DNA of 64,000 nt. Origin: Phycisphaeraceae bacterium. GTDB taxonomy: Bacteria; Planctomycetota; Phycisphaerae; Phycisphaerales; Phycisphaeraceae. Numbering within the stretch: position 1 is the first letter of the stretch; every line of letters begins with the position of its first letter. Under the pieces are notes generated by a model, which was not told the origin of the DNA, did not search any database, and saw only the letters and a list, made by a program, of their open reading frames with translations. The translations under genes and the position numbers were made by a program. Positions 13,355-13,885 of this stretch are shown here, piece after piece. The stretch spans positions 1 through 64,000 of the forward strand of contig PAIY01000096.1 in the NCBI GenBank assembly GCA_002704825.1, given 5' to 3'.

Positions 13355-13546
13355 TTGTCAGGTACAAGAAAATGGCACAAGTTTGAAAATGGATGTCAAC
13401 CTTGTGCAACGGGATGGCTTATTGAATTATGACCAACTGTAGGCAATATGGAAACCTGACGACATCGCTAAGTTAATCCAAAGATTGTCCTGCATTAGCG
13501 CAACCTCGGCACAACAATGACATTTTGACGATATTCAGATAAAGAT

Positions 13547-13579
13547 AAAACCCGCTAAGTGGTTATCTTAGCGGGTTTT
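13547..13579 (-). terminator. Terminator downstream of tRNA-Pro
   Basis: Perfect 13-bp inverted repeat (arms 13547-13559 and 13567-13579, AAAACCCGCTAAG and complement) with A/T tracts on both sides. It can work in both directions and lies 7 bp beyond the tRNA-Pro 3' end; it may also stop dabA transcripts. Confidence 0.85.
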
Positions 13580-13580
13580 A

Positions 13581-13660
<80 letters not shown>

Positions 13661-13802: not shown

Positions 13803-13885
13803 AGGCCGCGGTGGGATTCGAACCCACGATAGCTTACGCTAGCTGATTTGCAATCAGCCCCATTAGTCCACTCTGGCACACGGCC
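13803..13885 (-). tRNA. tRNA-Cys-like (anticodon GCA) with long class II variable arm
   Basis: An 83-nt cloverleaf. The acceptor is GGCCGTG/CGCGGCC, the D stem has 3 bp, and the anticodon stem GCTGA/TCAGC encloses the loop TTGCAAA, giving anticodon GCA (Cys). The variable arm has 14 nt with a 4-bp stem TAGC-GTAA-GCTA. The T arm GTGGG-TTCGAAT-CCCAC is canonical. The discriminator is U73, the main identity base for cysteinyl-tRNA synthetase, and CCA is not encoded. Class II arms belong to Ser, Leu and Tyr tRNAs, so the combination is unusual. Cys identity is favoured by U73 and GCA, while Ser charging through the long arm is an alternative. Confidence 0.85.

Follow-up and report, generated by a model that had tools for sequence, protein, structure and literature searches.

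Reviews count as long-armed the tRNAs for serine, leucine, bacterial tyrosine and selenocysteine. A gene in the 64,000 nucleotides of contig PAIY01000096.1 of Phycisphaeraceae bacterium that we analysed (the window) raises the question of whether a tRNA with a cysteine anticodon and such an arm is the working cysteine tRNA of its host, and how it came by the arm. The initial annotation of the locus offered two readings: either the lineage has a cysteine tRNA that acquired a long arm, or a Ser-like tRNA decodes Cys codons.

Structure of the gene and its variable arm

The gene occupies 13803-13885 on the minus strand (83 nt, class II, CCA not encoded). ARAGORN calls tRNA-Cys(gca) at this position, the Rfam tRNA model RF00005 matches with identical ends (54.4 bits, E 6e-9) and an order-specific tRNA-Cys covariance model gives 78.8 bits. 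The sequence GGCCGUG UG CCAGAGUGGACUAAUGGG GCUGA UUGCAAA UCAGC UAGCGUAAGCUAUC GUGGG UUCGAAU CCCAC CGCGGCC U forms an acceptor stem of 7 bp including one U.G pair, a T stem of 5 bp and a D stem of 3 bp, and folding of the gene strand yields -34.4 kcal/mol (z -2.7 against shuffles). The description of the locus as a class II tRNA with a GCA anticodon and U73 is thus confirmed by ARAGORN, by the Rfam ends and by direct reading. The check for a misplaced fold gave the same picture, with the covariance match keeping the same ends and ARAGORN giving the GCA anticodon.

The anticodon GCA, for the Cys codons UGU and UGC, was placed by ARAGORN at 13849-13851 (minus strand) in a 7-nt loop, UUGCAAA, that is invariant in A1. 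The discriminator U73 lies at 13803 on the same strand and is also invariant in A1, but U73 was demanded by the search pattern. The identity table in PMC9976931 gives U73 and GCA as the main elements of cysteine identity, with G2-C71 and C3-G70, in agreement with the earlier naming of U73 as the chief cysteine identity base; all of these elements are present in the window tRNA.

The variable arm (13828-13841, minus strand) has the 14 nt first ascribed to it: UAGC (13841-13838), the loop GUAA (13837-13834), GCUA (13833-13830), then U47 and C48 (13829-13828). The 4-bp stem of the same description needs qualifying, as UAGC/GCUA forms only with U44 paired; if position 44 is free, as in the host tRNA-Ser and tRNA-Tyr, the stem is 3 bp (AGC/GCU). 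Positions 8-26 (13859-13878, minus strand) contain a core of class II type with G9 (13877), G13 (13873) and A22 (13863), as judged by comparing distinct long-armed and short-armed sequences. With an arm of more than 10 nt that includes a stem, and with a G9, G13.A22 core, the gene as read from its sequence is a tRNA-Cys by its identity bases and class II by its structure. A tRNA-Sec is marked by UCA, G73 and a long acceptor branch, and here we read GCA, U73 and 7/5. The 7/5 acceptor-T arm, from which it had been argued that the tRNA is not of the 8/4 or 9/3 kind, holds, together with a 3-bp D stem.

Among the 14-nt arms (31 distinct sequences), 98.9% of cells preserve the three V-stem pairs, and at each of these pairs both partners vary (GC, AU, UA and CG). 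These compensatory changes argue for a variable arm that is folded and functional and under selection at the RNA level. Pairing over the whole cloverleaf was far lower in shuffled and slid controls, and the arm loops are mostly GNAA tetraloops.

Downstream, after 142 bases, comes a tRNA-Pro(TGG) gene called by ARAGORN (13585-13660, also minus strand), and the two genes are possibly transcribed together. On the 3' side of tRNA-Pro, a consensus scan gave a terminator-like hairpin of 15 pairs with a loop of 7 (13545-13581, minus strand), a weak candidate, as the count of such hairpins in the scan was not above that in shuffles.

Search for a second tRNA-Cys

The source genome comprises 6.4 Mb in 268 contigs and is 88.9% complete. 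A second tRNA-Cys was not found in it by a loose pattern (a GCA loop with a T loop on its 3' side, at any spacing that fits class I or class II), which returned the window gene and five unrelated matches. A covariance model trained on 14 short-armed tRNA-Cys of the order was then applied to five genomes, with 150 candidates scored in each (a first Rfam tRNA scan of the source genome had 150 of its 278 candidates scored). The top match was the tRNA-Cys in every one of the five, and Cys was separated from all others by 21 bits. This search gave one locus of 78.8 bits, and no second tRNA-Cys, both in the source genome and in the same-genus Planctomycetes bacterium syqfu (CP087563.1; G031), a complete single-contig chromosome. 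The runners-up in the source genome were a tRNA-Arg and a tRNA-Tyr (57.7 and 57.3 bits), and the short-armed control genome G049 scored 97.1 bits.

The source genome has one CysRS, of 502 aa, in which Cys33 (motif CGPTVYD) is encoded by TGT and Cys251 (motif HIECS) by TGC. We take these two residues to be zinc ligands. The use of TGT and TGC at conserved cysteines indicates that UGY most likely means Cys in the host, and the lack of a second tRNA-Cys in both genomes indicates that the window gene is most likely the working tRNA-Cys, being the only candidate found for the UGY codons. An accessory copy, as a second ordinary tRNA-Cys would have made it, is disfavoured by both the pattern and the covariance model.

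Other unusual tRNA genes were seen in the source genome. A 113-nt tRNA-like gene, for which ARAGORN makes no call, is present at G000:C111:54456-54568 (L321:1501-1613) and, in the same-genus chromosome, at G031:C1:1616177-1616289. It has the loop UUUGAAA, A73, a long D stem and a variable region of about 40 nt with two possible hairpins; its sequence is 98% the same in one species of the genus, and it was not found in 59 other relatives. On contig G000:C76 (L040:101-187) there is a tRNA-Leu with the anticodon AAG (A34), which is unusual for a bacterium.

Arm classes, tertiary core and history in the order

Among 101 genomes of the order (Phycisphaerales), 99 match a pattern of GCA loop, T loop and U73. 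The 77 parsed tRNAs fall into two arm classes, 37 with an arm of 12-18 nt and 40 with a loop of 5-6 nt (5 nt is ordinary), on the same body. The acceptor, anticodon and T arms are near-identical in the two classes, so the arm was gained or lost in place and the gene does not descend from tRNA-Tyr or tRNA-Ser; on this alignment, the window gene is orthologous to the tRNA-Cys of its relatives. The comparison over relatives that had been proposed at the outset therefore gives one body with two arm classes. It supports the gain of a long arm by the cysteine tRNA of the lineage and leaves the Ser-like tRNA decoding Cys codons without support, the body being shared with short-armed tRNA-Cys and no second tRNA-Cys having been found.

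Long arms are frequent in the family of the window (f1) and in f2, and occur as single cases in f3 (G033) and f4 (G003); none was seen in f5 or f6, except one extra gene in G015. Both forms alternate within families, even inside one genus (g20). The extra gene in G015 (G015:C32:16775-16827, L158), which accompanies a normal short tRNA-Cys, likewise has GCA and U73; its arm is 17 nt long and its body is different. Among the matches listed in a phylum-wide search (392 genomes), tRNA-Cys is short-armed, bar four Sec-like GCA tRNAs. These four, in other families of the phylum (G226, G389, G241 and G375; L161, L162, L163 and L164), have GCA and U73, a Sec-like long D stem and arms of 22-26 nt, and the one in G241 coexists with an ordinary short tRNA-Cys.

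We scanned 84,980 named species genomes for long-armed tRNA-Cys with a pattern that demanded GCCT at 70-73 and GGTTCGAATCC, which other forms would escape. This returned 111 stretches, 80 of them listed. Among these 80, 75 are genuine (71 full cloverleaves and four 3' halves), and nearly all of the genuine matches listed are labelled Phycisphaerales or Planctomycetota. Five listed matches in other phyla (Wallbacteria, Vannielia, Sinomicrobium and two Dehalococcoidales) give no good cloverleaf in this frame and were rejected; the two from Dehalococcoidales look like ordinary short tRNA-Cys caught through a repeated motif. The record QWIH01000018.1, labelled 'Leptolyngbya sp. PLA1' (L276), has a tRNA-Cys of Phycisphaerales type, and its label is probably wrong. 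The 3' halves run from the anticodon arm on (L273:711-760, L229, L262:478-529 and L264) in genomes that also have the full gene, and they look like attachment sites of putative integrated elements using tRNA-Cys.

The tertiary core also differs between the arm classes. G9 with G13.A22 is found in 63 of 71 distinct long-armed sequences. The distinct short-armed sequences number 36, and 26 of these have A9 with A13.A22; the exceptions are A9/A13 kept in 8 of the 71 and G9/G13 in 8 short-armed sequences. The host tRNA-Ser and tRNA-Tyr examined have G9 and G13.A22. Over 10 independent contrasts of arm against core, 5.7 go in the same direction, 0.4 in the opposite one and 3.9 leave the core unchanged (sign test, p about 0.06), which is suggestive of a core change that accompanies the arm class, not strictly. 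In class I tRNAs, two positions of the short loop, 45 and 46, contribute to core triples that involve the D arm. This region has another architecture in long-armed tRNAs, so a change at positions 9 and 13 is to be expected. For long-armed tRNA-Cys, the exact core contacts and the molecular role of G9 and G13 are what we infer from this.

The arm class was mapped on a tree of CysRS from 74 Phycisphaerales genomes, taken as a proxy for the species tree, with most genomes being MAGs. The mapping needs 15 changes (14-15 on bootstrap trees), and at least 10 are forced by supported branches; by this measure, the arm class of tRNA-Cys has switched at least 10 times within the order. Neither this recurrent switching nor the altered tertiary core had been anticipated in the initial annotation. 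Gains and losses of the arm cannot be told apart by parsimony, which gives 7-9 gains and 5-7 losses at equal costs, and 1 gain and 16 losses if the cost of a gain is doubled. The gene of G074, short-armed inside a long-armed genus and with G9/G13 retained, looks like a loss.

It is possible, though less likely than not, that the arm was gained once and early in the ancestor of the order and then lost about 16 times, rather than gained repeatedly. This account bears on history alone and leaves the explanation of function preferred below untouched. Parsimony favours it when gains are weighted at double the cost of losses, and several short-armed genes (G074, G091, G016 and G039) keep G9/G13 as if an arm had been lost. 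However, the short forms of f3, f5 and f6 are nearly all A9/A13, which would require reversions of the core (their exceptions, G066 and G020, differ at position 9 only), and, among the matches listed, the remainder of the phylum has short arms.

Charging, rival identities and significance

We consider it very probable that the host has a single working tRNA-Cys in which the short loop was replaced by a hairpin, with the CysRS elements kept, in a reversible and repeated switch. The starting point would have been an ordinary tRNA-Cys whose short variable loop gave way to the hairpin, set between U44 and the final bases that precede the T arm. The elements that CysRS reportedly reads in bacteria (U73, G2-C71, C3-G70 and GCA) would have been retained. 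In most lineages, the core that uses the short loop (A9, A13.A22) would have passed to the form of the host tRNA-Ser and tRNA-Tyr (G9, G13.A22). The arm has the geometry of tyrosine tRNAs, in which two free bases separate a short stem from C48. SerRS should not charge this tRNA, because it would read the placement of the arm and G73, while TyrRS would be excluded by U73 and the C35 anticodon, and LeuRS by U73. Charging would fall to CysRS, with all UGU and UGC codons decoded by the long-armed tRNA. The switch itself is reversible and recurs within the order.

Several observations bear on the sorting of this tRNA by synthetases. Reviews place serine identity mainly in the variable arm, in E. 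coli in tertiary shape, plus G73. The three host tRNA-Ser examined all have G73 and an arm stem of 6-8 bp that reaches C48 with zero free bases; tRNA-Cys and the host tRNA-Tyr have a short arm stem and two free bases before C48, a count that is ambiguous in arms of 16-18 nt with a bulge. Arm placement and U73 plausibly keep SerRS off tRNA-Cys, and the identity bases argue against charging of the window tRNA by SerRS, LeuRS or TyrRS. In the CysRS alignment of relatives, no clear adaptation tracks the arm class, consistent with an enzyme that makes no contact with the arm. Columns and inserts show modest associations only, strongest at the C-terminus, in statistics that ignore kinship and multiple testing. 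In several f2 genomes of both arm classes (L167, L168, L169, L208 and L209), the CysRS matches are split near residue 258, which suggests an insert.

The likeness to the host tRNA-Tyr, which has the same D-arm layout, a 13-nt arm and the same two free bases, could be read as a serine- or tyrosine-type tRNA mutated to GCA and now decoding Cys codons, possibly ambiguously, the more so as tyrosine GUA becomes cysteine GCA by one base change. Such an origin is very improbable. The short-armed tRNA-Cys of close relatives differ little from the window gene in the acceptor, anticodon and T arms; this common body rules out descent from tRNA-Tyr, and the two forms interchange within families and within genus g20. 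No other tRNA-Cys was found, and U73 and C3-G70 are cysteine elements, against G73 in the host tRNA-Ser examined. We give equally little credit to the idea that the gene is an extra tRNA-Cys, accessory or derived from selC, in a genome that also has an ordinary one. It is true that other parts of the phylum have GCA/U73 tRNAs that combine a long arm with a Sec-like D stem (G226, G241, G375 and G389), in G241 together with an ordinary short tRNA-Cys, but the window gene has a 3-bp D stem, a 7/5 branch and no Sec-like features, and it is the only tRNA-Cys found, as is its counterpart in the complete chromosome of G031.

The gene resembles several known systems in part. It shares with class II tRNAs (bacterial tRNA-Ser, tRNA-Leu and tRNA-Tyr) the long hairpin arm and the G9, G13.A22 core, in a geometry closest to host tRNA-Tyr, but has a cysteine anticodon, U73 and short-looped sister genes in the order. 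With ordinary class I tRNA-Cys it has in common U73, G2-C71, C3-G70, GCA and the body of the short-armed genes of the order, differing by the G9/G13 core and by a 14-nt hairpin arm where the ordinary form has a 5-nt loop. The reports of long-armed selC-like tRNA-Cys in some bacteria to which the initial annotation alluded correspond to selC* tRNA-Cys (Mukai et al. 2017, in PMC7609411). The passages on them in PMC7609411 describe mostly GCA, U73, a long variable arm, an 8/4 branch, Sec-like long stems and, in some groups, their own selB*/cysS*; cysteine identity and a long arm are common to both, whereas the window tRNA is 7/5 and the only tRNA-Cys found. Allo-tRNAs, likewise unexpected long-armed bacterial tRNAs, have 12-bp 8/4 or 9/3 branches (PMC7609411), unlike its normal 7/5. 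Nematode nev-tRNAs also put a class II arm on a tRNA for class I codons, but they are extra genes, poorly expressed and leucine-charged in vitro (PMC4033280, PMC4300185), whereas no other tRNA was found for the codons of the window tRNA, which retains the cysteine identity bases. In the open-access literature searched, we found no report of a long-armed 7/5 tRNA-Cys.

By textbook account, class is an invariable sign of the amino acid that a tRNA carries. Here the sole tRNA found for cysteine changes class repeatedly. Class switches within one order, usually with the matching core change, provide natural paired experiments on core triples, the arm and synthetase selectivity. Scaffolds of 7/5 type with a long arm have evidently been kept usable for a synthetase other than those of Ser, Leu and Tyr, which bears on rejection by SerRS and on engineered tRNAs. 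More speculatively, and in our estimate improbably, the switching may be adaptive, the arm altering recognition by a partner other than CysRS, such as a toxin that cleaves tRNAs, an enzyme that modifies them or an element whose integration site is the 3' half of the gene. If so, tRNA class would be an evolvable defence or specificity trait, beyond a fixed mark of amino-acid identity.
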